Assembly: GCA_009773005.1 (NCBI GenBank)
Contig: WOUT01000018.1
Span: 1 to 64,000 of the forward strand
Source: Chloroflexota bacterium
Lineage (GTDB): Bacteria; Chloroflexota; Anaerolineae; Anaerolineales; Anaerolineaceae
DNA length: 64,000 bases
Direction of reading: 5' to 3'
Part shown: positions 47,996 to 61,520 of the stretch, piece by piece
Layout of the letters: the number at the start of each line of letters is the position of its first letter
Position numbering within the stretch: position 1 is the first letter of the stretch
Position numbers and translations under genes: made by a program
The notes under the pieces: model-generated
The model's database searches: none
Told to the model about the DNA's origin: nothing
The model's input: only the letters and a program-made list of their open reading frames with translations

Positions 47996-48484
47996 TTATT
48001 TTGTGACTAATTGCGTTTCTTCAACAATAATATTCATGAATTGAAGACGGGTGGTCAAAAAACTACGGGCAGCAACATTCGCAATACGGCGATAGATAAA
48101 GAAACCGATGTCATGGTCTTCTTCGCATAGCTTAAAAAGCTGTTTACCGTGAATTCTAATCAATTTGCAATGGGTGATAGCGGTCGTGGTTCCAGTACGC
48201 TGCCTGACGACTGGAGTCATTGAAGACCAGCCTAATATGTCCAAGGGACCGAGTCGGGCTGTTTCTAGCTGTCCGCGGGTGGGCACGAATACTTCAACTT
48301 TAATTTCGCCATCCATTAAAACGTAAAGATAATCCAGTTGAGCGCCTTCCTGGATAGGCGTGTCACCTGGGTCAAGTTCGATCACTTCAGCGATCTCGCT
48401 GATCCGCTTTAACTGATCGTTATTAAAATCAAGAAAAAGGGGAATGATCTTCAATGTTTCAATGTTGGCTGAGTCGTTAAACAT
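47996..48484 (-). CDS. Cyclic-nucleotide-binding domain protein without a DNA-binding domain
   Basis: A 162-residue protein made of one cNMP-binding/CRP-type effector fold. It has 'ITDLDPGDTPIQEG'-like 'VIELDPGDTPIQEGAQLDYL', 'VLMDGEIKVEVF', 'LGPLDILGWSSM', and the long C-terminal helix 'GFFIYRRIANVAARSFLTTR'. It ends where a CRP helix-turn-helix would begin, and none is present. The phosphate-binding cassette is not standard, so the ligand may not be cAMP. It lies between the hydrogenase protease and hypA. It may be a redox or metabolite sensor acting by protein contact (inference). Confidence 0.8.
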   Translation of the reverse strand: MFNDSANIETLKIIPLFLDFNNDQLKRISEIAEVIELDPGDTPIQEGAQLDYLYVLMDGEIKVEVFVPTRGQLETARLGPLDILGWSSMTPVVRQRTGTTTAITHCKLIRIHGKQLFKLCEEDHDIGFFIYRRIANVAARSFLTTRLQFMNIIVEETQLVTK

Positions 48485-49264: not shown

Positions 49265-50692
49265 TTAATCCCGGGTAATCGTTTTAACCAACTGGTCTGA
49301 TGAATCTCTTATCTCAAGGATGATGGGCATTTGACCAACAGCATGTGTTGAGCACGAGAGACATGGGTCGTGGGCGCGGATTGCGGCTTCTACCCGGTTC
49401 AACATACCCTCAGAGACTTCTGGTCCATTGATATATGTTTTTGCGACACTATCTACGGCTTCGCTCATGGCCCAGTTGTTGTGACCGGTCGAAACGATCA
49501 GGTTCACCTTTTCGATTTGTTCATTCTTATTCATCCAGTAATGATGGATCAAAGTTCCGCGGGGCGCTTCAATTACTCCAACTCCATAAGGTTTCGGATT
49601 TCGGCAGGTGTTGAGTATGTCTTTGCTGAGAATATCAGGGTCATCCAATAAAACCTTGACATGTTCAGCCGCATACATGGTCTCGATTAATCGGGCGGTG
49701 TGATAGTGAAGCGTGTTTTCAACAGGTTTGCCATTATTTAATTTCTTGAACTTCTTAAGTTCTTCGTTGGCTAACGGTGTGGCAATATTTTCTGAATTAT
49801 TACACCGACCTAGCGGACCAACGCGATAAACTCCCTGCGGGTACCCCATTTTCTTGTAATATGGGAATTTCAAGTAAGACCAGTTTTCAACATGTTCAGC
49901 TATATAATCGAGGTAATTGCGAGGATCAAATCGCTCAAGTTGTTTGCCGTTTGAATCGATCAACCTTATGTCGCCATCGTAGAGTTCAAGTGCGTTATCG
50001 CGGCTGACCATACCGAAGTACCCGGTCGGGAAGACGGCAAACTTGTTGATATCTTCCATGTTTTGCTCAGCCCAACCTTCCATGATGCTGATGCCGACTT
50101 TGATAGTGGCAATCGCTTCATCATAGCCTGATAAGATTAGGTCACGTTCGTCTTTGGTTAAGGCTTTATTCACTCCACCCGGGATGGCAAAATTGGGATG
50201 AATTCTCCGACCTCCCAAAATGCGGATGATCTCTTGTCCCCATTTGCGCAGATTGACCGCTTTGACTGTCAACTCAGGGTTGGCTTGTAATAAACCAACC
50301 ACATTTCGAATGGCGGGATCGGCGTCAAAGCCAAGCAACAGATCAGGTCCGGCGAGTTCAAAGAAATGCATTCCGTGGCTTTGGACGACCTGACCCATAT
50401 GCATTAATTCTCTCAAGAGAGAGGCAGGGCGGGGTGGAGGAGCGCCGAGCACATCATCTCCAGCTTTAGCTGCCGCAAGATGGTGGCTTACTGGGCAAAT
50501 CCCACAGATACGAGGGGTGATCAAGGGCATTTCAAATACCATGCGGCCTTCACAGAATTTTTCGAAACCACGAAATTCATTGATGTGAAGATAGGCATGA
50601 TCGACTTTACCAGTAGCATTCATGCGGATCGTGACTTTGGCGTGGCCTTCAATACGAGTGACTGGTTCGATTGTAATTTTTTGGGCTACCAT
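49265..50692 (-). CDS. NiFe hydrogenase large subunit (group 3, HydL/HoxH-like)
   Basis: A 475-residue cytosolic large subunit. The N-terminal nickel-binding motif is 'RICGICPVSH' (about residues 62-71) and the C-terminal one is 'DPCLSCSTH', followed by a 25-residue tail that the maturation protease should remove after the His. It holds the Ni-Fe active site for H2 oxidation or evolution. AGGAGG precedes the ATG. The small subunit lies 15 bases upstream, so the pair forms one heterodimer. Confidence 0.95.
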   Translation of the reverse strand: MVAQKITIEPVTRIEGHAKVTIRMNATGKVDHAYLHINEFRGFEKFCEGRMVFEMPLITPRICGICPVSHHLAAAKAGDDVLGAPPPRPASLLRELMHMGQVVQSHGMHFFELAGPDLLLGFDADPAIRNVVGLLQANPELTVKAVNLRKWGQEIIRILGGRRIHPNFAIPGGVNKALTKDERDLILSGYDEAIATIKVGISIMEGWAEQNMEDINKFAVFPTGYFGMVSRDNALELYDGDIRLIDSNGKQLERFDPRNYLDYIAEHVENWSYLKFPYYKKMGYPQGVYRVGPLGRCNNSENIATPLANEELKKFKKLNNGKPVENTLHYHTARLIETMYAAEHVKVLLDDPDILSKDILNTCRNPKPYGVGVIEAPRGTLIHHYWMNKNEQIEKVNLIVSTGHNNWAMSEAVDSVAKTYINGPEVSEGMLNRVEAAIRAHDPCLSCSTHAVGQMPIILEIRDSSDQLVKTITRD

Positions 50693-50707: not shown

Positions 50708-51250
50708 CTAATTCCAAGCCAGCTTATCACCCTTCAAATCTGGCATGCGACCTTGACCAAGCTCGCTCAAAACATAAAAGATCGTATCAGCATCCGGGGG
50801 GCAGCCAGGCACAAAAACATCAACTGGAACCACATCCTGCAATGCACGGACCTTGGTAGGGACACAAAGTTCTGGATCGTTCGGAATTTTACCGCTTTCA
50901 TCCGTGCTTTCAGTTTCGATATAAGCCCGGCGTAAAGATTCTTCGATCGTGAAGAAGTTTCTCATGGCCGGAACGCCACCAAATACAGCACAGTCTCCGA
51001 GAGCTACCAATATTTTACAGTGTGAGCGCATTCGAAGTGCAACTTCCTCATTGGAAGAATTGTTGATTCCTCCTTCCAAGATTCCAACATCTACGCCAGA
51101 TTCGTCCGGGTGTTTGAAATCAGTGATCGGCGTTGAACGTAAGTCAACCAGCGCCACAACTTGTGCAATTCGTTCGTCCATATCCAATAAAGACATGTGG
51201 CAGCCAGAGCATCCTGCCAACCAATCTGATGAGACTTTAGGTTTAGCCAT
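50708..51250 (-). CDS. NiFe hydrogenase small subunit (HydS/HoxY-like)
   Basis: A 180-residue small subunit, short as in group 3 enzymes. It has 'WLAGCSGCHMSLLDMDE' near the N-terminus, 'LVALGDCAVFGGVPAMRN', and 'VFVPGCPPDADTI': the ligands of one proximal [4Fe-4S] cluster. No Tat signal, so it stays in the cytosol. The start at 51250 is supported by GAGGAGAG. The cluster passes electrons between the NiFe site and the NuoG-like subunit encoded upstream. Confidence 0.94.
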   Translation of the reverse strand: MAKPKVSSDWLAGCSGCHMSLLDMDERIAQVVALVDLRSTPITDFKHPDESGVDVGILEGGINNSSNEEVALRMRSHCKILVALGDCAVFGGVPAMRNFFTIEESLRRAYIETESTDESGKIPNDPELCVPTKVRALQDVVPVDVFVPGCPPDADTIFYVLSELGQGRMPDLKGDKLAWN

Positions 51251-51271
51251 AATCTCTCCTCGTTTTATCAA

Positions 51272-53224
51272 TTATTTAGAAATTTCAACAACAGAAACGC
51301 GCTTGTGCAATTCTTTCGTCCAATCACCTGCCAGTTTGACACCAAGTTTATCGGCGAGTGCATTCATAGTTTGGACTGTTGACCAGGCTCCTTCAGCGGG
51401 CTTGATGGCTTGTTTTGCTTCCTGTAACTTGCCTTCCAGACTGAGGTAATGCCCATCCTGTTCCAACCAATTCGTGGAGGGTAAGACGACATCAGCCACA
51501 CTAGTAAGGGCAGAAGAGTAGGTGGCAAGGACAACCTTGAACGGAACTTTTTCAAATTCCTTTACGGTTTTTTGTGAGGCTTCATCGTCACCAACTGCGA
51601 AGAAGACAGCTTTGTGTCCATTGACCTTTAAAGCCTTGTCAAGATGGAGCTGTGATGCAGCCAGGCTGTTGGCTTCGCCTTTTACACTGATCAATTTTGC
51701 ATTGACAACATCAGCGAGTTCTTTTAGAGTGACGAGTTCTGAACCAGACTCATAGACGATCACCGGATTTTCAGCAGAAGTCAAAACGTAGGCAGCGTCC
51801 AGGTAATCATCGGTTATAAGACCGGTTGATGCTGCGAGGGAATCAAGATCGGTTGCCTTGATTGGGGTCATTGCCTTGGCAAGACCAAGTTTGACCACAG
51901 CAGCCATAATCGCCTTGAGAGGATCTGTTTTTGTTCCCTTGCTTGCCTTAATAACCTTGTTGGCCAATCTTGCCAGACCGTTTTCCTGGTTGTCTACAAT
52001 CAGCAAATTTGTACCCGAAGCCAGTTTTCTTTTGATAAAGAACCCGGTTACCTGATGGTGCTTGACGAGGTCTGCACCAAAAACCATGACAGCGCCGGCC
52101 GACTGCAGATCTTTTAAGCTACCTTCAAACTCTTTATTCAGGGAATCAGCAAAAACTGCAGAATCGGCTGTAAAAGCGCCTTCTTCTGTGGTGGTTACCA
52201 TTTCACTGCCCAGTTTATCGGCAAAGAGTTGTTTAAAGTTGTAGATAGCTTCAACTGGTTGTCTGGTGGAAATAAGGGCGGCGACGCCATCGCTGCTCTT
52301 GCCAGCTATCGGCTTTAGTTGGGCGGTAATCGTATTAAGTGCTTCGTCCCAGGTGGCGGCCTTCAATGTGCCGTTCTTACGGACTAAGGGCGTAGCAATC
52401 CGTTCGCATTTTTCTTTCATAGGATTAAAGCGGCCAACTTCACAGATGACGCCTTCGTTCATTTCGGCTTCCCAATCCCCTTCAATGCGGACGAGACTAT
52501 TATCACGGGTAAGGACATTAACCTTGCAGCCGACAGAACAACCCACGCAAACGGTATTGGTGATATCAACCTGAGTTTCACGACCGCGATAGGCGCTCCA
52601 GCGGTCAATCACAGCACCAGTCGGGCATACTTGAACGCATGAACCGCAGGAAACACAAGTGCTTTCACCAAGTGGAACCCCGGTATCTGCAACCAGAATA
52701 CTTTTCGCGCCGCGTTCTTCAAAACCCAGGGTATAGTTGCCAATCAATTCGCCGCAGGCTCTTACGCATCGCCGGCAGAGGATACAACGGTTGTTCTCAA
52801 GTATGATATACGGATGCGAAGCATCCATGGGGTAAGGTTGATAATTTGGCTGTAATGGCCAGTGGGTCATGCCTTCGGCATAGGCTGCATTTTGCAACTC
52901 GCAATCACCGCCGCTGACCTGGCAATACGGGCAAAAGTGGTTTCGTTCACTGAAGATCAATGTAAGGACGAATTTGCGCGCATCCAATACTTTTTTCGTA
53001 TCAGTTTTGATAACCATGTTATTGTTCACAGGCAGCGTGCAGGATGGCTGTAGGGTTCTTGCCCCTTCAACCTCAACCAAACACATCCGGCATCCACCGT
53101 ATGGAGTCAGGTGTGGGTGATCGCACAAGGTTGGAATATCGATTCCGGCTGCTTGCGCAGCTCGTAATACAGTTGTCCCATCAGGGACTTCCAGTGTATT
53201 ACCGTTGATAGTAATGGTCGCCAT
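51272..53224 (-). CDS. NuoG/HydA-like iron-sulfur subunit of the hydrogenase
   Basis: A 650-residue Fe-S protein. Residues 1-215 are HoxU/NuoG-like: a [2Fe-2S] domain (Cys34, 45, 48, 62), a His-Cys3 site (His96, Cys98, 101, 108) and two [4Fe-4S] sites (Cys147/150/153/157; Cys190/193/196/200). A further Cys set (226, 229, 233, 261) opens a molybdopterin-oxidoreductase-like domain (about 260-645) with no sign of Mo-cofactor use. It has none of the H-cluster motifs of FeFe hydrogenase. It should relay electrons between the NuoF/NuoE modules and the NiFe heterodimer. Confidence 0.9.
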   Translation of the reverse strand: MATITINGNTLEVPDGTTVLRAAQAAGIDIPTLCDHPHLTPYGGCRMCLVEVEGARTLQPSCTLPVNNNMVIKTDTKKVLDARKFVLTLIFSERNHFCPYCQVSGGDCELQNAAYAEGMTHWPLQPNYQPYPMDASHPYIILENNRCILCRRCVRACGELIGNYTLGFEERGAKSILVADTGVPLGESTCVSCGSCVQVCPTGAVIDRWSAYRGRETQVDITNTVCVGCSVGCKVNVLTRDNSLVRIEGDWEAEMNEGVICEVGRFNPMKEKCERIATPLVRKNGTLKAATWDEALNTITAQLKPIAGKSSDGVAALISTRQPVEAIYNFKQLFADKLGSEMVTTTEEGAFTADSAVFADSLNKEFEGSLKDLQSAGAVMVFGADLVKHHQVTGFFIKRKLASGTNLLIVDNQENGLARLANKVIKASKGTKTDPLKAIMAAVVKLGLAKAMTPIKATDLDSLAASTGLITDDYLDAAYVLTSAENPVIVYESGSELVTLKELADVVNAKLISVKGEANSLAASQLHLDKALKVNGHKAVFFAVGDDEASQKTVKEFEKVPFKVVLATYSSALTSVADVVLPSTNWLEQDGHYLSLEGKLQEAKQAIKPAEGAWSTVQTMNALADKLGVKLAGDWTKELHKRVSVVEISK

Positions 53225-53258: not shown

Positions 53259-54893
53259 CTAAATTCTTTTACCGCTCATTGAGCAGACACCCGTTGGGCA
53301 GACTTTTAGCCGAATGTGAGCTTCCACTTCAGCACGATAGTGGAAAACAATATCCCGGATTGGGGCTCCGGCGGTTTGACCGAGTCCACAGTTGGAAAGC
53401 TGGTATAGATTGTCGCTAAGGTTCATCAAATCGGTGAGATCGTTAAGCGAACCTGTACCTTCCGAGATATTGGTCAAGATTTCATACACACGTTGAGTAC
53501 CAATACGGCAAGGGTTGCATTTACCGCAGGATTCTTTCCGGAAGAAGTTGAGCAGCACACGAGCAAGGTCAACCACGCATGTATCATCATCACAAATCAG
53601 GAGGGCGCCAGACCCTAAAGCGACACCGGCTTTGCTAAATGAGTCAAAGTCCATCGGAGTGTCTTGAAGCGTTGCAGGAACAATGGATCCTGAGGAACCA
53701 CCAGTTTGAGCAAGTTTGAAGGTCTTTCCGTTCTTCATTCCCTTGCCATAAATGGCAATTACTTCACGTAATGTGATTCCCATTGGTACTTCGATCAGAC
53801 CGGTGACATTAACATTTCCCAAAATGGTGTAGACTTTTGTACCCGGGCTGGATTTAGGACCGAAACCACGATACCAATCCGCGCCATTCCGGAGGATTGG
53901 GGCGACATTGGCTAAAGTTTCGACGTTGTTCACCAGGGTTGGTTTGCCCCACAAGCCATGAGTCGTCGGGTAAGGGGGGCGGGCTCGCGGTTCACCGCGT
54001 TTGCCTTCAATAGATTCGATCAAGGCGGTTTCTTCACCGCAGATATAAGCGCCTGCGCCGGCATGAACATGCAATTCAAGGTTAAAGTCGGTTCCGAAAA
54101 TATTCCTGCCGAGGAAGCCCATCCCTTTTGCCTGAAGGATGGCTTTGCGGATGCGTTCCTGCGCAAGCACATACTCTCCGCGGATGTAAAGATAACCCTC
54201 GTTAGCGCCTACAGCGTAAGCCGCAATCGCTAATGCTTCGATGATCGAATGGGGATCACCTTCAAGGATCAAACGATCCTTAAAAGTACCAGGTTCGCTC
54301 TCATCAGCATTGCATATAACATACTTCTTCTCCCCTTTGGCTTTATAAACAAAGCGCCATTTAGTTCCTGTGGGGAAGCCTGCTCCGCCGCGACCGCGTA
54401 AACCGGATTTTTCGAGCGTATCGAAAATCTGGTCAGGAGTCATCGCTGTCAAGGCTGTGGCAAACGCTTGATAGCCATCTCGGATAATGTAATCATCAAT
54501 TGAATCCGGATCAATTTCTCCCGCTCGTTCCAGGACAATTCGCTGTTCCGCAGGCAGCGTTCCTTTTCTTGCGGATAGCCATGCAATGCGACCGGAAAGT
54601 TCACGTACCGGGGCTTGCAGAGAAACTGCTACTCTACCCTTATAAAGGTGTTCTTCAACAAGGAAGTGAACATCCTCTTTTTTTACAGGACCGTATATTA
54701 CCGCTTCAGGATATACAATCACCAGAGGAGAGGCGTCATGACGGCCAACATCACCTACCATTGTCAAAGAGACCTCGTTATCAAGCCCAAATGAGGTTAG
54801 TTCGTGCTGAAGCGCCTGATAAACGTCATTGGCGCCGTTTTCGATGCTTTTTGGATCACTGGAGACCAGAACCATGGAACGAATTGCTTTCAT
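53259..54893 (-). CDS. NuoF-like NAD(P)H/FMN subunit, copy 2 (no C-terminal ferredoxin domain)
   Basis: A 544-residue flavoprotein. A thioredoxin-like N-terminal domain (1-100) has lost all cluster cysteines. FMN and NAD(P)-binding motifs follow ('GLRGRGGAGFPTG', 'ESEPGTFKDR', 'GAGAYICGEETALIESIEGKRG'), then the N3 [4Fe-4S] site 'ESCGKCNPCRIG' with 'NCGLGQ'. It stops there without the two ferredoxin-type clusters found at the C-terminus of the other NuoF copy. It probably pairs with the NuoE encoded next to it (54906-55385). Pyridine-nucleotide preference cannot be read from sequence alone. Confidence 0.92.
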   Translation of the reverse strand: MKAIRSMVLVSSDPKSIENGANDVYQALQHELTSFGLDNEVSLTMVGDVGRHDASPLVIVYPEAVIYGPVKKEDVHFLVEEHLYKGRVAVSLQAPVRELSGRIAWLSARKGTLPAEQRIVLERAGEIDPDSIDDYIIRDGYQAFATALTAMTPDQIFDTLEKSGLRGRGGAGFPTGTKWRFVYKAKGEKKYVICNADESEPGTFKDRLILEGDPHSIIEALAIAAYAVGANEGYLYIRGEYVLAQERIRKAILQAKGMGFLGRNIFGTDFNLELHVHAGAGAYICGEETALIESIEGKRGEPRARPPYPTTHGLWGKPTLVNNVETLANVAPILRNGADWYRGFGPKSSPGTKVYTILGNVNVTGLIEVPMGITLREVIAIYGKGMKNGKTFKLAQTGGSSGSIVPATLQDTPMDFDSFSKAGVALGSGALLICDDDTCVVDLARVLLNFFRKESCGKCNPCRIGTQRVYEILTNISEGTGSLNDLTDLMNLSDNLYQLSNCGLGQTAGAPIRDIVFHYRAEVEAHIRLKVCPTGVCSMSGKRI

Positions 54894-54905
54894 GAGCGGC
54901 TCCTT

Positions 54906-55385
54906 TTAGTGATACCGGGCTAGAATTGACTGGACCTGTTTGGCGTCCACATTACCGAAGATGTCGTCATCGATCATCATGACAGGGCCAACACCGCAAA
55001 CGCCTAAACAACTCGTAGTAACCAACGTCCAATTACCGTCAGGTGTGGTTTCATCTTCATCAATCTTGAGAGCTTCTTTGACAGCCATCCAAACTTCTCG
55101 ACCACCTGCGACATGGCAAGGAGCGCTCTCACAGAACTGAATGACGTGTTTTCCGCGCGGCTTGGTTGAAAGCATCCGATAAAAACTTGCGACCGAGAAA
55201 AGATGGCTTTTCGGAACCCTCAACAAACGGCTGATTTCATCCAATGCTTCACCGGGCAAATAACCAATTTCCCGATTTACATCATTAAGAATCGGTATTA
55301 GTTCGTCTCGCGTCGCGCCATAACGGTCAACGGCAGTTCGTACTGCTTCCAGCACGACTTTTCCGTCTATAGGTACGATTGTCAT
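54906..55385 (-). CDS. NuoE-like [2Fe-2S] subunit, copy 2
   Basis: A 159-residue thioredoxin-like [2Fe-2S] protein with ligands in 'QFCESAPCHVAGG' and 'TSCLGVCGVGPVMM', and the helical N-terminal bundle of NuoE ('LIPILNDVNREIGYLPGEAL'). It partners the NuoF copy 2, whose start lies 12 bases downstream. GGAGGAG precedes its ATG. Confidence 0.92.
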   Translation of the reverse strand: MTIVPIDGKVVLEAVRTAVDRYGATRDELIPILNDVNREIGYLPGEALDEISRLLRVPKSHLFSVASFYRMLSTKPRGKHVIQFCESAPCHVAGGREVWMAVKEALKIDEDETTPDGNWTLVTTSCLGVCGVGPVMMIDDDIFGNVDAKQVQSILARYH

Positions 55386-55451: not shown

Positions 55452-57233
55452 TTAATTAATGACGATTGCATTAAAGTTACACACTTGCATACATATACCG
55501 CATCTTACGCATGCATCGGGATCAATGAGGTGGGTCTGACGCCGTTCCCCTGAAATGGCATTGACCGGGCAATTGCGTGCGCAAACCGTGCATCCTGTGC
55601 ATGTGCCGTCAATGATCTCGTATCGGATCAAGGACTTACAAACCTTGGAGGGGCAACGTTTTTCGTAGATATGGGCCTCGTACTCTGAACGGAAGTGTTG
55701 GAGAATACTTACGATCGGGTTAGGAGCGCCTTGACCTAAACCGCAGAGACTGGTTTCGCTGATTTCACTGCACAGCATTTCAAGGGTCTCGATATCTCCA
55801 TTTTTGCCTTTTCCATCGCAAATCCGCTCAAGGATTTCGAGGATGCGGCGTGTTCCAACACGGCAGGGAGTGCATTTACCACAAGACTCGTCTTGTGTGA
55901 ATTCCATGAAGAAACGGGCGATATCCACCATGCAGGTTTCTTCATCCATAACGACAAGACCACCTGAGCCCATGATGGAACCGGCTTTGGCAAGTTCTTC
56001 ATAATCTACAGGCAGGTCAAGGTACTCAGAAGGTAAACAACCGCCCATCGGACCGCCGGTTTGAATCGCTTTGAAACCCTTATCTTCCTTAATCCCGCCG
56101 CCGACATCATAAATGATCTCCCTAAGGGTAATTCCAAAGGGGACTTCTATCAAACCAGTGTGTTTCACGTCTCCAGCCAGGGCGAAGGTCTTGGTGCCCT
56201 TTGACTTTTCAGTTCCCATACTGGCGTACCAATCTGCGCCTTTTAGAATAATCTGTGGGACATTGGCATAGGTTTCTACGTTATTGATGTTGGAGGGTTT
56301 TCCGAATAACCCTTTCACTGCCGGAAATGGGGGGCGCGGATGAGGTTCACCACGATTACCTTCAATGGATGCCATCAGGGCGGTCTCTTCGCCGCATACA
56401 AACGCGCCAGCTCCCATACGAACTTCCAGGTCAAAATCAAAACTGGAACCTAAAATATTCTTGCCAAGCAACCCAAAATTGCGAGCTTGTTCAATTGCAA
56501 TATTCAAGGTTTTAACCGCGATGGGGTATTCTGCACGACAATAAATATAACCTTGATTTGAACCGATAGCATAAGCTGCGATAATCATCCCTTCGATTAC
56601 GGAATGGGGGTCACCCTCAAGAACACGACGGTTCATAAAGGCGCCAGGGTCGCCTTCATCGGCATTGCAAATTACAAATTTGGGAGATGCTTGAGAAGCA
56701 CGACAGAATTGCCATTTTTTACCAGTCGGGAATCCAGCTCCACCGCGACCTCGCAGTCCTGACTTCAAGACAATTTCGATCACTTCTTCAGGTTTATTTT
56801 GAGTCAAGACATTACCAAGGGCCTGATAACCGTCTTCGGCAATGTAATCTTCGATATTCTCAGGGTCGATCTTGCCGCAATTGCGTAAAACGACACGAAT
56901 CTCTTTAGCAGTAGGAGCGCTGAGCTCCTCATCGACAGTTATTTTCTTTTCTTCTACAAATTTCGCTGCAATACGGCCTTTTAGAAAATGTTCTTCAACA
57001 AGGTATGGAATATCATACGTCGTTAAACCAACGTAATGAACACCGTCTGGGTAGACCATCATTTCTGGTCCGTTACTGCAGCTACCAATCCTGGAGGTTT
57101 CAAGCACTTGAACCTCATCGATCAGTCCTTGTGCTACTATCTCATCCTGAAAAGCGTCCAAAACATCATGAGCGCCTTTATTCAAACATTCAGGATCGAC
57201 ACACACTAATACATGAGAACGAAAATGCGCCAT
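55452..57233 (-). CDS. NuoF/HydB-like flavoprotein subunit with C-terminal ferredoxin domain, copy 1
   Basis: A 593-residue HydB-type subunit. The N-terminal thioredoxin-like [2Fe-2S] domain keeps three of four cysteines (Cys11, Cys16, Cys52). FMN and NAD(P) motifs follow ('GLRGRGGAGFPTGKKW', 'DEGDPGAFMNRR', 'GAGAFVCGEETALMASIEG'), then the N3 site 'ESCGKCTPCRVG'. The C-terminal two [4Fe-4S] ferredoxin units are 'CTGCTVCARNCP' and 'CVRCGICMQVC'. This is the architecture of bifurcating hydrogenase beta subunits, where ferredoxin and NAD(H) meet at FMN. Confidence 0.94.
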   Translation of the reverse strand: MAHFRSHVLVCVDPECLNKGAHDVLDAFQDEIVAQGLIDEVQVLETSRIGSCSNGPEMMVYPDGVHYVGLTTYDIPYLVEEHFLKGRIAAKFVEEKKITVDEELSAPTAKEIRVVLRNCGKIDPENIEDYIAEDGYQALGNVLTQNKPEEVIEIVLKSGLRGRGGAGFPTGKKWQFCRASQASPKFVICNADEGDPGAFMNRRVLEGDPHSVIEGMIIAAYAIGSNQGYIYCRAEYPIAVKTLNIAIEQARNFGLLGKNILGSSFDFDLEVRMGAGAFVCGEETALMASIEGNRGEPHPRPPFPAVKGLFGKPSNINNVETYANVPQIILKGADWYASMGTEKSKGTKTFALAGDVKHTGLIEVPFGITLREIIYDVGGGIKEDKGFKAIQTGGPMGGCLPSEYLDLPVDYEELAKAGSIMGSGGLVVMDEETCMVDIARFFMEFTQDESCGKCTPCRVGTRRILEILERICDGKGKNGDIETLEMLCSEISETSLCGLGQGAPNPIVSILQHFRSEYEAHIYEKRCPSKVCKSLIRYEIIDGTCTGCTVCARNCPVNAISGERRQTHLIDPDACVRCGICMQVCNFNAIVIN

Positions 57234-57277: not shown

Positions 57278-57646
57278 TTAGATGTTTATCATGTGATCAG
57301 TCACAACTTTGCCGTTGCCGACATGCTCTTTTAAGATTTTTTTGGCAATATCCGGAGTCACTTTACCATAGGTTACTTTGGCTGCTTCTCCAATAACAAC
57401 TTGCAGAATGGGTTCTTTTTCACAAATTCCAATGCAGCCAGTTTGTGTAACAATAATCCCGCTCAAAGAGTCTTTTTCGATCGTATCAAGGATCGATTTC
57501 ATTGTATCGCGAGCGCCGGCGGCAATACCGCATGTGCCCATCCCAACGATGACTTGCACAGTACCGGAGGATGCCTTAAGGTCGCGTTTTTTTAAGGCTT
57601 CTTCTCGTACGCGCTTTAAGTCTTCAAGGCTTTTGATAGTTGACAT
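57278..57646 (-). CDS. Thioredoxin-like [2Fe-2S] ferredoxin
   Basis: A 122-residue protein with 'IVGMGTCGIAAGARDTM' and 'TQTGCIGICEKEPILQV', the pattern of the (2Fe-2S) ferredoxin-domain proteins that sit beside hydB in clostridial hydrogenase operons. Three of the four usual cysteine positions are seen. It is either a separate electron carrier or a loosely bound subunit. 20 bases downstream of the HATPase gene and 44 bases upstream of NuoF copy 1. Confidence 0.87.
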   Translation of the reverse strand: MSTIKSLEDLKRVREEALKKRDLKASSGTVQVIVGMGTCGIAAGARDTMKSILDTIEKDSLSGIIVTQTGCIGICEKEPILQVVIGEAAKVTYGKVTPDIAKKILKEHVGNGKVVTDHMINI

Positions 57647-57666: not shown

Positions 57667-58242
57667 TTATTGAGTTTTTGATACATGACCTGCCTTGGAA
57701 TTATTCTGAGCATCAGCAATTCCAGATTCCAGCATTTCACGTATCCAATTTAGAATTAATGGTTCTGACATTGACATGCCACCGAGTTCGGCTTTTATCG
57801 GTTCATCGTTAAAATTGAATGAGTGATCATTGTAACGGTAAAGAAACATCCAATGAACTTGCGGATTGGCGATCAAAAGGTGAAGCATGGTTGTTGTGTA
57901 ATCTCCCAGCGGCATTCGATCAATGTGGCTATATTGAAATTGAACGATCAACTTTGTGCCTTCACCGATACGCGAAGTAATTTCGAATGAACCATTGCAT
58001 TCTTCAGCCGCAGCTTTAAGTAGGGGGATCCCTAAACCAACTTTACGAGTCGTCCGACTCGTTACAAATGGATCCACCACTTTTACCAGCATTTCTGAGT
58101 CCATCCCACGACCGTCATCTTGAACACTCAATTTTAAAAGATCTGCTTTTGTATCTTCAACAATTTCGATGGTAATATTCTTTGCTTTTGCAGAAACGCT
58201 ATTTTCTGCGATATCTAAGATATGAAGGGAAAGTTCTCTCAA
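57667..58242 (-). CDS. GHKL/HATPase-domain protein (hydrogenase-associated)
   Basis: A 191-residue protein starting 'MRELSLHILDIAENSVSAKA', with the ATP-binding boxes 'DIAENSV' (N), 'QDDGRGM' (G1) and 'GLGIPLL' (G2). It has no histidine phosphorylation domain and resembles anti-sigma/SpoIIAB-like ATPases. Such genes recur between NuoE and NuoF genes in bifurcating hydrogenase operons; function unknown. The start is TTG at 58242, two codons after the NuoE stop. Confidence 0.85.
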   Translation of the reverse strand: MRELSLHILDIAENSVSAKAKNITIEIVEDTKADLLKLSVQDDGRGMDSEMLVKVVDPFVTSRTTRKVGLGIPLLKAAAEECNGSFEITSRIGEGTKLIVQFQYSHIDRMPLGDYTTTMLHLLIANPQVHWMFLYRYNDHSFNFNDEPIKAELGGMSMSEPLILNWIREMLESGIADAQNNSKAGHVSKTQ

Positions 58243-58245
58243 AGG

Positions 58246-58767
58246 TTACTCGGCTTTTTCCTGAATAGGCTTAAAAACCTGTGGAAGTTTATTTGGTTTA
58301 ACTCGTCCTAAAACTTCTTCATCAATAACAATAACGGGCGCTTGTGAGCATGCTCCAACACACCGGCACACTTCCACGGTGATGTTCCCATCTGCGGTGG
58401 TTTGACCCGGTTCAATGCCTAAAACCTGTTTGGTTTTTTCTATCAGGGCTGATGTTCCACCGACATAACACGCCGTTCCCATGCAGAATTTCACAGTGTG
58501 CTTGCCGCGGGGAGTGGTGGTAAAGAACGAATAGAACGAAACAACACCATGAACCCGAGAGACAGGAATCTGAAGCCGTTTAGCGACGTATTCCTGCATT
58601 GATGCGGTAATAAAACCAATCGCGGATTGGAGCTCATTCAATACTACCATTGTGGCGCCAGGACGTTCTTTGTTTTGATCAATAATCTGGTCAATGATAT
58701 TTTTCTTTGCCAAATCGGTTAGTGGATCATTTTTTTGGATCGTTTTTGTAGTGGGGGCAGATGTCAT
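58246..58767 (-). CDS. NuoE/HydC-like [2Fe-2S] subunit, copy 1
   Basis: A 173-residue NuoE-type protein with ligands in 'KFCMGTACYVGGT' and 'VCRCVGACSQAPVIV'. It corresponds to HydC of bifurcating hydrogenases, which stands beside HydB. It is the first gene after a 176-base gap containing a candidate promoter, so the catalytic operon probably starts here. Confidence 0.92.
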   Translation of the reverse strand: MTSAPTTKTIQKNDPLTDLAKKNIIDQIIDQNKERPGATMVVLNELQSAIGFITASMQEYVAKRLQIPVSRVHGVVSFYSFFTTTPRGKHTVKFCMGTACYVGGTSALIEKTKQVLGIEPGQTTADGNITVEVCRCVGACSQAPVIVIDEEVLGRVKPNKLPQVFKPIQEKAE

Positions 58768-58943: not shown

Positions 58944-59765
58944 CTATATCATACCATCAGTAAAACTGATGAATCGACCTTGAGAATTAGATAATGCCAA
59001 TTTAATTTCACTTATGGCTGGATAAAAAATATGTAGTGACATCCTCCTGCTGAACTCATCGAGTCTATGCACATCACCATTTTGGACGAGCGGATAACCG
59101 GAGATTTGCGGATATATTGATGAAGCTAAAGCAGGATCAATGTGTTTTGAAATTTCCAACGCCTCAATAGTGATATCTGTTGGCACTAGCCCCAGATTCT
59201 CAATCAAACTAAAAACTTTGCGGTCTATATGGGCGGGGATAAATAAACCGCTTAATTCTGAAACAGCCTTCCAGGCTTCGCTTAATGACATACTCGAACT
59301 GGTGAGAAGCAACTGGTTTTCGCGACGTATGAAATCTCCAGCTGCATCAACAACGAATTGCTCCCCAAAATGCTCGGGTTGGTTCATGATTTTCGGCAGA
59401 GTGCGGTTGACGAGTTCTTGAAGTTTGTTGACTTGTTCTAAGGTATCGAACAGGCAAAGGGAATGTACATCTTCGCGTGTTTGAAGTTCGATTCCAGGTA
59501 AAACAGTTAAGGGATACTTTTCGGCAGCTTTTTGGACAGCCGAAATATTGGCTGTTGAATTATGATCTGTGATGGCAATGAGCTGAATCCCGAGATCGAG
59601 TGCAAATTCAACGATTAAAGGGGGGGTCATTTCTGCTTCAGCACAAGGTGAAAGCACCGTGTGCACATGTAGATCTGCAATAAAGGTGTTGATTTGATCA
59701 GTCAAAGGAGTAATTAGATCATTCCGCGGGTTTACATCGTAGACCCAATTCCCAAAGTAATCCAA
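58944..59765 (-). CDS. PHP-domain putative metal-dependent phosphoesterase
   Basis: Up to 273 residues (TTG at 59765), with the PHP metal-binding motifs 'IADLHVHTVLSPCAEAEM' (about 30-47), 'LIAITDHNST', and 'NGDVHRLDEF'. It resembles the PHP proteins that stand beside FeFe hydrogenase genes in Clostridia; the natural substrate is not known. A TTG at 59705, just after the DRTGG stop, gives a shorter protein and may be the real start; neither has a convincing ribosome binding site. Confidence 0.83.
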   Translation of the reverse strand: MDYFGNWVYDVNPRNDLITPLTDQINTFIADLHVHTVLSPCAEAEMTPPLIVEFALDLGIQLIAITDHNSTANISAVQKAAEKYPLTVLPGIELQTREDVHSLCLFDTLEQVNKLQELVNRTLPKIMNQPEHFGEQFVVDAAGDFIRRENQLLLTSSSMSLSEAWKAVSELSGLFIPAHIDRKVFSLIENLGLVPTDITIEALEISKHIDPALASSIYPQISGYPLVQNGDVHRLDEFSRRMSLHIFYPAISEIKLALSNSQGRFISFTDGMI

Positions 59766-60072
59766 CCATATTAAAGGATGTTTTTTCCGTACCTAACAGT
59801 ACCACTCCCTCTTCGTTCGCTTTAGCGATTGTAGCAGCGTCAGGTGCGGCGCCTTCTGTGATGATGACCGCAGAAAGTTCTAGTAAAGCGGCAACAGCAA
59901 CAATGTTGGAATGAGCCTGAAGGGTTACCCAAATCGATTGATGCGGTGCGCCTGCCATGACACAGCTTAACAGATCAGATGAATATCCATATGAAGGTAC
60001 TACTTGTGAAAAAGCTTTGGATTCTGTGATAACCTTTAATTCTAACGCTGTGATAATTTCCTGAATATTCAC
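59719..60072 (-). CDS. DRTGG-domain protein, copy 2
   Basis: A 117-residue single DRTGG-type domain ('MAGAPHQSIWVTLQAHSNIV', 'ELSAVIITEGAAPD') beginning at a GTG (60072) with AAGGAG seven bases upstream. The upstream in-frame ATG at 60105 lies within the CBS-HATPase gene. DRTGG domains occur in phosphotransacetylase-like proteins and CBS proteins and may bind nucleotides; function here unknown. Its end overlaps the PHP gene if PHP starts at 59765. Confidence 0.8.
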   Translation of the reverse strand: MNIQEIITALELKVITESKAFSQVVPSYGYSSDLLSCVMAGAPHQSIWVTLQAHSNIVAVAALLELSAVIITEGAAPDAATIAKANEEGVVLLGTEKTSFNMVGLLWELGLRCKPAE

Positions 60073-60073
60073 A

Positions 60074-61072
60074 TTAATTCTCCTTGTTAGGGGTTGACCC
60101 TTCACCTACAGATTCTTCTTTTTGAAGAAGTATTTTTAGACGTAAATTGGTGCCCTTGCCATAAACAGATTCAAGTCGCATTGAATCTACACACCTTTGA
60201 ATATTTACAAGACCCATACCTGCGCCAAACCCTAACTCCCTGACGGTTTCTGTGGCTGTTGAATACCCCGGGCGCAAAGCCAATTCGACATTTTCAATAC
60301 CTGGGCCATCATCAGAAATGTTGATCGAAATTTGGTGCGGTTCAATTTCAACTCGTATGACTCCACCGTTAGTCGTGTGGATGATTAAATTCATTTCCGC
60401 TTCATAAATGGCAATTCCAGTTCGGCGGGCGATCTGAGGTGTAGCGCCCAGTCTCAATAGCGCTCGTTTGATCGCAGAGGAGGCTGCACCTCCGCGAACA
60501 AAATCACCCTGCTTAATGTTGTATCTCAGGATGAGACTGGAACGATCAGATTCGATATCTTCAAAAAGGTGGCTGGCTCGATACCGTCTGACTTCTTCCG
60601 CGTGATAATCCTTTTGCAGCGCCTTCAGGATACCGCTGGTGATATCACCCTTTGTAATGATTCCTGCCAAAATATTATTCTCATCAAGAACAGGCAGGCG
60701 GCCATAGTCCGAGCTGACAAACAATTTTAAGGCATCTATGACCGGGTCGACCCCGTGAACGGTTAGAAGTTTAGAGCTCATATACGTTGAGACAGGAGAG
60801 GATAAATCGTTTTTTTGAAGACAGCGGATTAAATCTTCAATGCTAATAATTCCAACGAGCGTATTATTTAATATTACCGGCGCTCCGGAAATTCGGTTTT
60901 GACGAAACAAATTGAGAGTGTCACACATAGTAGTGTCTGGTGCGACTGTCGCAGGATTCCGCGTCATGACCGCGTCAATTTTTAATTCATAGGCTAGTTC
61001 TTCAACCCGGGTGATATTCTCTGCATCTTTATCGGTAATGGTATGTCCTTGAAAACGAGAGGGCTCGCCCAT
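60074..61072 (-). CDS. CBS-pair protein fused to a HATPase domain
   Basis: A 332-residue protein. Two CBS repeats occupy about residues 30-150 ('DAVMTRNPATVAPDTTMCDT', 'YMSSKLLTVHGVDPVIDALK'). A linker and a GHKL ATPase domain of the anti-sigma (RsbT/SpoIIAB) type follow at about 205-320 ('IYEAEMNLIIHTTNGG', 'ISDDGPGI', 'GFGAGMGLVN'). CBS domains usually sense adenine nucleotides or NAD, so it could couple energy charge to an ATPase switch (inference). AGGAGAA precedes the ATG. Confidence 0.85.
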   Translation of the reverse strand: MGEPSRFQGHTITDKDAENITRVEELAYELKIDAVMTRNPATVAPDTTMCDTLNLFRQNRISGAPVILNNTLVGIISIEDLIRCLQKNDLSSPVSTYMSSKLLTVHGVDPVIDALKLFVSSDYGRLPVLDENNILAGIITKGDITSGILKALQKDYHAEEVRRYRASHLFEDIESDRSSLILRYNIKQGDFVRGGAASSAIKRALLRLGATPQIARRTGIAIYEAEMNLIIHTTNGGVIRVEIEPHQISINISDDGPGIENVELALRPGYSTATETVRELGFGAGMGLVNIQRCVDSMRLESVYGKGTNLRLKILLQKEESVGEGSTPNKEN

Positions 61073-61083
61073 ATTTCTCCTAT

Positions 61084-61464
61084 TTATTCATCACATGAAC
61101 ACGGACCATCTCCAACCGACCTTTCGAGGCTAGGTAAACCTGCTCGATGCAACCTTCCACAAAGTTCAAACATGCCAAATTGTGATGAAATCAAGGCAAG
61201 TTCTTCTTCAGCGGCAAGAGCTATTGTTTCCTTTGGGGGAATCTTGCCGCGAACAATAATTACTGCAGCGACATCGGCCATCATTGAGGTTCTGATCACC
61301 TGCGGGTTACACAAACCGGTCAAAAGAACTGCTTCAGGTTGAATGGAAGCGAGCACATCACTCATAAGGTCGGCTCCGCAGCCCCCTTTGATCTCACGCT
61401 CAAGATTTGCAGTAGGGTTATACAAATGACCGTCAATTAGCTTTATTAATTCTTTTACTTTCAT
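61084..61464 (-). CDS. DRTGG-domain protein, copy 1
   Basis: A 126-residue DRTGG-type protein ('LIKLIDGHLYNPTANLERE', 'GCGADLMSDVLASI', 'AAVIIVRGKIPPKETIALA'). Similar genes precede bifurcating-hydrogenase clusters in Clostridia. Start at ATG 61464; an in-frame GTG at 61476 is possible. First gene of the minus-strand hydrogenase region. Confidence 0.8.
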   Translation of the reverse strand: MKVKELIKLIDGHLYNPTANLEREIKGGCGADLMSDVLASIQPEAVLLTGLCNPQVIRTSMMADVAAVIIVRGKIPPKETIALAAEEELALISSQFGMFELCGRLHRAGLPSLERSVGDGPCSCDE

Positions 61465-61520
61465 TTCAACATCCACATTTCAGGAATATATACGGGTAAG
61501 AAGGTGAATCTAATTTGGAT

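Follow-up and report, generated by a model that had tools for sequence, protein, structure and literature searches.

Why should a group of genes likened to the companions of FeFe hydrogenases stand ahead of a NiFe hydrogenase operon? The question is raised by positions 1 to 64,000 of contig WOUT01000018.1 from a Chloroflexota bacterium (Anaerolineaceae; GenBank assembly GCA_009773005.1), a stretch of 64,000 nucleotides that is here called the window in its full length. A sequence-only reading of it had picked out four genes, for a DRTGG protein, a CBS-HATPase fusion, a second DRTGG protein and a PHP protein, had likened them to accessory genes of clostridial FeFe bifurcating hydrogenases although it saw no FeFe hydrogenase, and had proposed a control module for bifurcating enzymes that is independent of the metal. 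The group was indeed confirmed as four open reading frames (ORFs) of the same strand, at 61464-58944 on the minus strand and ahead of the hydrogenase operon; we call its products DRTGG1, CBSHAT, DRTGG2 and PHP, and the group itself the cassette. As described here, the cassette also occurs where FeFe hydrogenase is lacking, and seems to track the BfuBC core that the electron-bifurcating Bfu enzymes share, not a metal or a substrate.

Co-occurrence of the cassette with Bfu enzymes

The FeFe hydrogenase family PF02906 gave 0 matches in the whole genome of the bacterium (105 contigs, 97.54% complete), which bears out the absence noticed in the window, and an FeFe hydrogenase encoded elsewhere in the genome was thus rejected as the explanation of the cassette. 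Among 150 genomes of the window's class, CBSHAT was found in 49, an FeFe hydrogenase in 13 and a NiFe large subunit in 125, and CBSHAT was present in 11 of the 13 FeFe genomes. FeFe hydrogenase was lacking from 38 of the 49 CBSHAT genomes of the class and from 13 of 50 others, as well as from the genome of the window, and the label of an FeFe hydrogenase accessory cassette therefore had to be dropped. An FeFe hydrogenase lay near BfuB in 6 of the 80 loci with BfuB, and no Clostridia were among the relatives kept.

We ran the genome-wide co-occurrence check that the sequence-only reading had called for. CBSHAT was found to accompany Bfu-type enzymes both in the window's class and in Spirochaetota, FeFe-negative genomes included. 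In the class, Bfu was detected in 43 of the 49 CBSHAT genomes as compared with 24 of the 101 others (Fisher p 4e-14), and within the FeFe-negative genomes in 32 of 38 with CBSHAT as compared with 22 of 99 without it (p 3e-11), all of these counts being among the matches listed, with weak cases scored as absent. For Spirochaetota, the phylum of Breznakiella homolactica, 120 genomes were sampled, and BfuB was present in 24 of the 25 with a full-length CBSHAT and in 32 of the 95 others (p 7e-9), where eight genomes matching the HATPase half only were scored as CBSHAT-negative and the Bfu-positives include two C-terminal fragments (G223 and G245; here and below, G and L numbers are our handles for genomes and loci). 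The corresponding fractions for FeFe hydrogenase were 20/25 and 53/95 (p 0.04), and among the FeFe-negative Spirochaetota, Bfu was found in 4 of 5 genomes with CBSHAT and 9 of 42 without it, which are small numbers.

A scan of genome contigs with 27 CBSHAT proteins confirmed at least 572 relatives among at least 588 stretches. The best 80 of these, which form our beyond-class set, came from Chloroflexi, Deltaproteobacteria, Planctomycetota, Spirochaetota, Thermotogae, Atribacteria and others; by the taxon in the records, Clostridia were not among these best 80. In the combined set of 117 non-duplicate loci (3 of 120 were dropped as duplicates), BfuB lay in the retrieved flank of 80 loci. Where 8 kb or more had been retrieved on each side, it was there in 28 of 37 loci, and where the full cassette of DRTGG1, CBSHAT, DRTGG2 and PHP was present, in 65 of 68. 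At the level of whole genomes, BfuB was matched in each of 50 further genomes with CBSHAT and FeFe hydrogenase in 37 of them, five of 55 loci (L093, L101, L102, L105 and L113) being excluded from this check; by our own reading, BfuB was C-terminally complete or Nfn-type in 48 of the 50 (split over two ORFs in G195) and partial, in short open frames, in G157 and G168.

The third module of the enzyme varied among these loci. Near BfuB in the 80 loci, we found NiFe in 26, FdhA in 7, FeFe in the 6 given above, HdrA in 4 and NuoD in 2, in addition to the mixed cases NiFe with HdrA (2), NiFe with FdhA (1) and FdhA with HdrA (1), while none was seen in 31, of which 20 had under 5 kb retrieved beyond BfuB; the typing used a motif or profile in the retrieved region, and nearness is no proof of the same enzyme. 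Pfam searches further detected a BfuB fused to a Pyr_redox_2 module, Nfn-type-like, in L047, Mo-enzyme domains near the cassette in L063, and a complex-I 49 kDa subunit encoded among the cassette and Bfu genes of L117. Since the cassette recurs beside NiFe, FeFe, formate dehydrogenase and complex-I-like enzymes, it seems to follow the electron-bifurcating core, not the metal. We hold the association of the cassette with Bfu to be real with high confidence. The proposal of a metal-independent control module stands in so far as the association spans NiFe, FeFe, Fdh, Nuo and Hdr modules; the cassette is not exclusive to Bfu, and control is a role that we infer.

Several observations weigh against this association, or limit how tight it can be. 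The Fisher tests ignore relatedness (the 49 CBSHAT genomes of the class span 23 families), and the presence of Bfu is our own reading of matches reaching about query residue 585, or of ORFs of about 900 aa or more. Bfu clusters without the cassette exist, as in the 24/101 class genomes above (examples are L162, formate-dehydrogenase-like, and L163, with an FeFe motif), and the genome of the window itself encodes a second, cassette-free Bfu of Fdh type (L157:753-5218, contig C37). Moreover, a DRTGG-CBSHAT pair was found without a BfuB match at E 1e-100, among the matches listed, in G077, G101 and G121, and the spirochaete G299 has CBSHAT with no BfuB match at 1e-120. BfuB was also not nearby in nine of the 37 well-flanked loci (L055, L067, L118, L121, L128, L135, L138, L146 and L155), and many Spirochaetota carry the cassette away from Bfu, as in L128, L135, L138 and L146, whose genomes do have BfuB. 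A strictly Bfu-linked cassette is thus weakened by G077, G101, G121 and G299 together with the 24 Bfu-positive class genomes that lack CBSHAT. Three further Bfu-negative readings may be artefacts, because the contig of G057 looks cut inside BfuB, of which L083, a contig of equal length, carries 251 aa, and because G085 and G088 have incomplete kinase genes; they were kept as negatives in the counts.

The uncorrected relatedness, with NiFe large subunit matches, for example, in 125/150 class genomes, is what passive co-inheritance would build on, in which the cassette merely rides along with anaerobic redox islands and does not act on Bfu. We regard this as very improbable, since the genes are tightly spaced, their order is similar across many phyla, the association persists in the FeFe-negative subsets, and the rearranged loci L122, L132, L144, L148 and L151 keep Bfu nearby on the opposite strand. 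Alternatively, the cassette could be a general energy-state module for anaerobic central metabolism, with Bfu merely its commonest client. Such a module would fit the phosphofructokinase gene near the cassette in L136 (Pfam) and L156 (NCBIfam), the HAD-type genes of one protein cluster, found in 7 loci (L142 was checked by family search), the putative group 3b NiFe hydrogenase and Hdr genes that we read around the DRTGG1-CBSHAT pairs of L057 and L159 (13 kb off in L159), and the pairs without a listed BfuB match in G077, G101 and G121. However, the fidelity to Bfu (24/25 in Spirochaetota, 50/50 further genomes, 65/68 complete cassettes) is higher than a general module should show, and we consider this alternative unlikely.

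Several loci carry noteworthy genes near the cassette or Bfu. In L117 (4599-15895) and L123, complex I-type genes alternate with those of the cassette and BfuABC or directly adjoin them, forming a Nuo-Bfu cluster. BfuA-like proteins of about 1080 aa with an HdrA-like flavin domain (Pfam) are encoded at L100:12431-15685 and L126:10344-13574 and possibly belong to joint Bfu and Hdr bifurcating complexes. At L063:9282-12005, a formate dehydrogenase-like gene is split by a stop, which may be a selenocysteine codon; the second part is in-frame and begins VTGLAAAFGSGAMTN.

Gene order and neighbouring genes

The grouping of the cassette genes is beyond chance. Over the 120 loci (3 duplicates), DRTGG1-CBSHAT, CBSHAT-DRTGG2 and DRTGG2-PHP were direct neighbours on the same strand in 93, 91 and 85 cases, with median intergenic gaps of 3, -4 and 1 bases, and PHP was directly followed by BfuC in 49 pairs; in the window, 176 bases separate these two genes. 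We retrieved 40 of the 49 CBSHAT loci of the class, most of which have the order DRTGG1-CBSHAT-DRTGG2-PHP-BfuC-HATP-HydD-BfuB, where HATP is a stand-alone HATPase, whereas 7 of the 40 contain the DRTGG1-CBSHAT pair only (L052, L055, L057, L061, L064, L067 and L069, the last on a contig of 3,125 bases). Left out of this locus set were G007, G022, G057, G059, G075, G085, G088 and G090, six of them on contigs of 3.6-6.8 kb, and G088 and G090 with partial matches. In L108, PHP and HATP are fused in one ORF, the sole such fusion found, and HATP is likely to be a fifth member of the cassette. Across the whole genome of the window, DRTGG matches were found for the two cassette genes and no others.

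Rex-like genes were present in 8 loci, and the two tested, in L148 and L151, scored above the NCBIfam cut-off for Rex. By coordinates, the Rex-like gene lies directly ahead of DRTGG1 in L144, L145, L148 and L151, and in L144, L148 and L151 the cassette and the FeFe-Bfu operon are on opposite strands. HydE and HydF precede the cassette in L089, and HydF is near it in L133. Promoter and terminator scans gave no signal above the shuffled level, and CBSHAT had no match in PHROGs. Near the cassette of a spirochaete, L128:12621-13823 encodes a protein homologous to 'methanogenesis marker 16', with a score of 119.7 bits that is under the cut-off of 363.95.

Folds, conserved sites and a possible switch

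The domain assignments of the sequence-only reading were upheld by structure models and family searches: the CBS pair is AcuB-like, the HATPase SpoIIAB-like and the DRTGG proteins resemble those of CBS-pyrophosphatases, and PHP keeps conserved ligand-type residues. In the AlphaFold model of CBSHAT (predicted local distance difference test, pLDDT, 85.6; predicted template modelling score, pTM, 0.49), residues 178-318 superpose on SpoIIAB 1til_E with Z 19.6 and a root-mean-square deviation (rmsd) of 1.9 over 135 aligned residues, and the CBS pair on 2p9m_C with Z 18.3 and on AcuB 9s4v_C with Z 17.8 (rmsd 1.4, 124 aligned). The model of DRTGG1 (pLDDT 94) is similarly close to the DRTGG protein 2ioj (Z 17.2), to the DRTGG domain of the CBS-pyrophosphatase 3l2b (Z 14.5, rmsd 2.4, 112 aligned) and to HPr kinase/phosphatase (Z 11.1). 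DRTGG2 matched the DRTGG1 family in a profile-profile comparison (hhalign) at 99.9% and E 5e-33, and by profile the two are paralogues.

Alignments of the relatives, whose rows were selected on length, on profile score and at 80% identity and thus favour intact genes, revealed invariant residues in every cassette protein. In CBSHAT, E224, N228, D254, G256, G258, G283, G285 and G287 are conserved in 100% of 93 rows; presumably these form the N, G1 and G2 boxes of GHKL ATPases. The same holds for H33, H35, H68, E93, H179, D231 and H233 of PHP (78 rows, with H101 at 97%) and for N14, D42, G44, G46, G69 and G71 of HATP (64 rows), and from family knowledge we take the invariant residues of CBSHAT, HATP and PHP to be catalytic or ligand positions. 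Following the ATPase domain of HATP, the SHIDRxPLGD motif is near-invariant, with H106, D108, P111 and G113 at 96-98% of 64 rows. Among the DRTGG proteins, S39 in the DLMSDV motif of DRTGG1 (67 rows) and S47, T61 and N67 of DRTGG2 (74 rows) reached 100%, and H65 of DRTGG2 98%. In the model, S39 lies at the N-terminal end of helix 38-44, which follows a strand. The same placement is known for the phospho-Ser of STAS partners and may hint at a similar role.

Gene order, co-occurrence, folds, conserved active sites, the PHP-HATP fusion and the Rex-like neighbours together suggest that the cassette may serve the BfuBC core as an adenine-nucleotide-gated kinase/phosphatase switch, a reading whose ligand, activities, direction and target we infer and to which we give a probability of roughly 0.45. 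In such a switch, the CBS pair, probably with both DRTGG proteins, would sense energy charge or a related nucleotide, such as AMP/ADP/ATP, diadenosine tetraphosphate (Ap4A) or NAD(H), and thereby gate the SpoIIAB-type HATPase, which would phosphorylate Ser/Thr on a partner. PHP, probably together with the stand-alone HATPase, would reverse the phosphorylation, and the output would determine how active the Bfu enzyme is, how it is assembled or which partner it uses, irrespective of its third substrate; in the window the enzyme would be the NiFe hydrogenase described below. As a weakly supported best guess, the DRTGG proteins might accept the phosphate on the invariant Ser of their DLLSDV motif, or else BfuB/BfuC might be the acceptor.

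Against the switch stand, besides the limits of the association with Bfu given above, three results. The arrangement of the CBS and HATPase domains in CBSHAT is uncertain at a pTM of 0.49; CBSHAT scores 54.1 bits with the curated SpoIIAB model (TIGR01925 spIIAB), under its cut-off of 135, and by that model is not SpoIIAB itself; and STAS and sigma-factor families were absent from the 25 commonest Pfam families of 149 scanned neighbour proteins (of 176), so that the classical SpoIIAB partners were not seen there. The last result also counts against partner-switching transcription control, in which the SpoIIAB-type protein would inhibit a sigma factor or regulator and thus set operon expression. 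That the anti-sigma factor SpoIIAB is the closest fold of the CBSHAT ATPase half speaks for such control, but rarer families fall outside the 25 examined and, among the commonest, no partner appeared; the roles of the DRTGG proteins and PHP would also be left unexplained, and we consider it quite improbable.

The main rival is an assembly or repair factor for the flavin and iron-sulfur core of BfuBC (flavin mononucleotide, FMN, and the B2 cluster), in which the ATPases would be chaperones and PHP would act on a damaged nucleotide cofactor. The cassette accompanies BfuBC whatever the third module, as would be expected if it acted on the core common to these enzymes; HydE and HydF occur near the cassette in the loci named above, and the extra genes of the Acetomicrobium mobile operon are assumed, in the accessible text of Feng 2022 (PMC8880783), to serve 'maturation and/or regulation'. 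On the other hand, the Bfu clusters of genomes without CBSHAT (24/101 in the class among the matches listed, e.g. L162 and L163) imply that the core can be made without the cassette, which argues against an obligate assembly factor, and the CBS domains point to sensing and the Rex neighbours to redox control. That the cassette helps to build the NiFe or FeFe site is likewise disfavoured, since the cassette is found near Nuo- and Fdh-type Bfu. Overall, we judge assembly or repair doubtful, and keep the nucleotide-gated switch as the preferred reading.

The cassette as a switch would combine features of several known proteins. Its ATPase half has the same fold and invariant ATP-binding residues as the anti-sigma Ser kinases SpoIIAB and RsbW (GHKL), whereas CBSHAT carries a fused CBS pair and has DRTGG and PHP partners. 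AcuB, a CBS protein solved with AMP, ADP, ATP and Ap4A, has a CBS pair like that of CBSHAT (in a tie with 2p9m_C), but lacks the ATPase domain and has another client. The CBS-DRTGG pyrophosphatases (Clostridium perfringens, 3l2b/3l31), which AMP and Ap4A regulate, contain both of the regulatory modules found in the cassette; in the cassette, however, CBS and DRTGG are on separate proteins, and a kinase-type ATPase takes the place of the pyrophosphatase. According to the accessible text of PMC7705103, CBS-pyrophosphatases with DRTGG respond to diadenosine polyphosphates, while those without it are unaffected. HATPase, PAS and kinase domains are described in group C FeFe hydrogenases in the accessible text of an mSystems 2024 paper (PMC11406978), and these differ from the cassette. 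In the table of a Thermoanaerobacterium saccharolyticum Rex paper, the PHP gene Tsac_1856 is among those for which a Rex site is predicted; DRTGG and CBS are absent from its main text. No description of the cassette was found in the literature searched, which covered few subscription papers.

The hydrogenase operon of the window

The genes of the cassette and of the operon behind it are listed in Table 1.

Table 1. Cassette and hydrogenase genes of the window, with the matches on which the names rest.
Feature	Position	Strand	Evidence
DRTGG protein 1 (DRTGG1, cassette gene 1)	61084..61464	-	Pfam DRTGG 26.4 bits, cut-off 25.2
CBS pair and SpoIIAB-type HATPase fusion (CBSHAT, cassette gene 2)	60074..61072	-	Pfam CBS x2 and HATPase_c (96.1, 40.5 bits)
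DRTGG protein 2 (DRTGG2, cassette gene 3)	59719..60072	-	Pfam DRTGG 21.5 bits, under the 25.2 cut-off
PHP-domain phosphoesterase (PHP, cassette gene 4)	58944..59765	-	Pfam PHP 39.5 bits, cut-off 26.4
BfuC/HydC, NuoE-type [2Fe-2S] subunit of the bifurcating core	58246..58767	-	Pfam 2Fe-2S_thioredx 156.5 bits
Stand-alone HATPase (HATP)	57667..58242	-	Pfam HATPase_c 55.8 bits; conserved C-terminal SHIDRxPLGD-like motif
Small thioredoxin-like [2Fe-2S] protein	57278..57646	-	Pfam 2Fe-2S_thioredx 21.1 bits, under the cut-off 24.8
BfuB/HydB, FMN/NADH subunit with C-terminal 2x[4Fe-4S] ferredoxin domain	55452..57233	-	7t2r_B 835.7 bits, best solved match
Second NuoE-type subunit (E2)	54906..55385	-	Pfam 2Fe-2S_thioredx 156.1 bits
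Second NuoF-type subunit (F2)	53259..54893	-	7t2r_B 594.3 bits, best solved match, aligned over 4-538 only
BfuA/HydA-like iron-sulfur subunit, NuoG-like	51272..53224	-	7t2r_A 305.5 bits, best solved match; no PF02906 match
NiFe hydrogenase small subunit HydS/HoxY	50708..51271	-	Pfam Oxidored_q6 104 bits
NiFe hydrogenase large subunit HydL/HoxH	49265..50692	-	7t2r_D 565.5 bits, residues 5-475 of 475

The ORF of DRTGG1 extends over 61084-61476, with the ATG at 61464, and that of DRTGG2 is open to 60105, with a probable GTG start at 60072. The small [2Fe-2S] protein gave 48.4 bits with fdxn_Clost, under the cut-off of 150, and is called HydD-like here as a presumptive name.

Because BfuB, BfuA and HydL each match the Acetomicrobium mobile structure 7t2r best among solved structures, the hydrogenase is assigned by sequence to the NiFe-HydABCSL (NiFe-Bfu) type, and electron bifurcation is predicted for it. 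BfuB has the domains Complex1_51K, NADH_4Fe-4S and Fer4 and aligns with 7t2r_B over residues 1-590 of 593. The five B2 cluster ligands of A. mobile HydB, given as C438, C476, C531, C536 and H525 in the accessible text of Schut 2022, align to C434, C472, C527, C532 and H521 of the window's BfuB, whose FMN-loop motif is AFM; of the four Cys that A. mobile has in the N-terminal [2Fe-2S] domain, one is missing here. The Pfam domains of the BfuA-like subunit are Fer2_4, NADH-G_4Fe-4S_3, Fer4_7, Molybdop_Fe4S4 and Molybdopterin. A plain group 3d (Hox, non-bifurcating) identity was rejected for HydL, which scored 565.5 bits with 7t2r_D and 426.8 with its next-best solved match, the NAD-reducing Hox hydrogenase 5xf9_D, and for the first BfuB, which matches 7t2r_B best and keeps every B2 ligand.

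The operon contains two NuoE/NuoF-type pairs, a feature absent from the sequence-only reading. Unlike BfuB, F2 has a TFK loop, lacks the C-terminal ferredoxin domain and has Ser in place of the B2 ligand C476, so that by motif it would be of a non-bifurcating type. In the fetched loci with duplicates removed, all 17 F2-type proteins have TFK and no ferredoxin pattern, whereas 71 of the 79 BfuB-type proteins have AFM, AYM or AFA (the other 8 are outside this pattern) and 50 of the 79 the ferredoxin pattern, 25 of the remaining 29 being long proteins of fused type. Because the motifs of F2 differ from those of BfuB, the lineage seems to join two diaphorases, one bifurcating and the other not, to a single NiFe module, and the E2/F2 pair (53259-55385) suggests a two-headed hydrogenase. 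One F2-type protein, in L145 (Atribacteria), sits in an FeFe cluster.

The enzyme of the window thus shares with the A. mobile NiFe-HydABCSL (7t2r and 7t30; Feng 2022, Schut 2022) the B2 ligands, the AFM loop and the C-terminal ferredoxin domain of its first BfuB. In contrast to the A. mobile operon, it adds the second, non-bifurcating-type NuoE/NuoF pair and has the DRTGG, CBS-HATPase and DRTGG genes ahead of it, of which the accessible text of Feng 2022 makes no mention for A. mobile; that text lists HydD, HisK and HydP as additional genes of the operon, and HATP is at most presumably the equivalent of HisK. Within the Bfu family, NiFe-Bfu is placed in Synergistetes and Halorhabdus according to the accessible text of Schut 2022, whereas the nearest named relatives of the window's CBSHAT, among the best 80 of at least 572, are Chloroflexota.

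Downstream of HydL, putative hyp maturation genes, labelled by reading alone with no family search, extend down to about 42147, and a protein with a cyclic-nucleotide-binding domain (47996-48484, Pfam cNMP_binding 42 bits) is encoded between the hydrogenase and these genes. The genome of the window has four NuoF-type genes, one of them the BfuB gene of its second Bfu (L157). This Bfu consists of a 541-aa BfuB with a HydD-like N-terminus and a 932-aa Mo-enzyme subunit (Molybdopterin, Molydop_binding), and no HATP was seen in the retrieved region.

Implications

In its most specific form, the switch would be a dedicated post-translational control of Bfu enzymes across phyla, in which a CBS-gated SpoIIAB-type kinase phosphorylates the invariant Ser of two DRTGG adaptors, PHP and the second ATPase reverse this, and the BfuBC core is thereby tuned to energy charge with any third substrate. 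In the two-headed NiFe enzymes of the lineage, the switch would decide which head, the bifurcating E1F1 or the non-bifurcating E2F2, serves the same hydrogenase. So detailed a scheme is unlikely to hold in full; if it did, the change between the E1F1 and E2F2 heads would turn bifurcation on and off. Bifurcating enzymes set the flux of H2, formate and ferredoxin in anaerobes, and the cassette, with its nucleotide-sensing and kinase/phosphatase folds, opens the question of how cells regulate them to direct tests on a few soluble proteins. It could also explain why Bfu enzymes might behave differently if made in foreign hosts that lack it.

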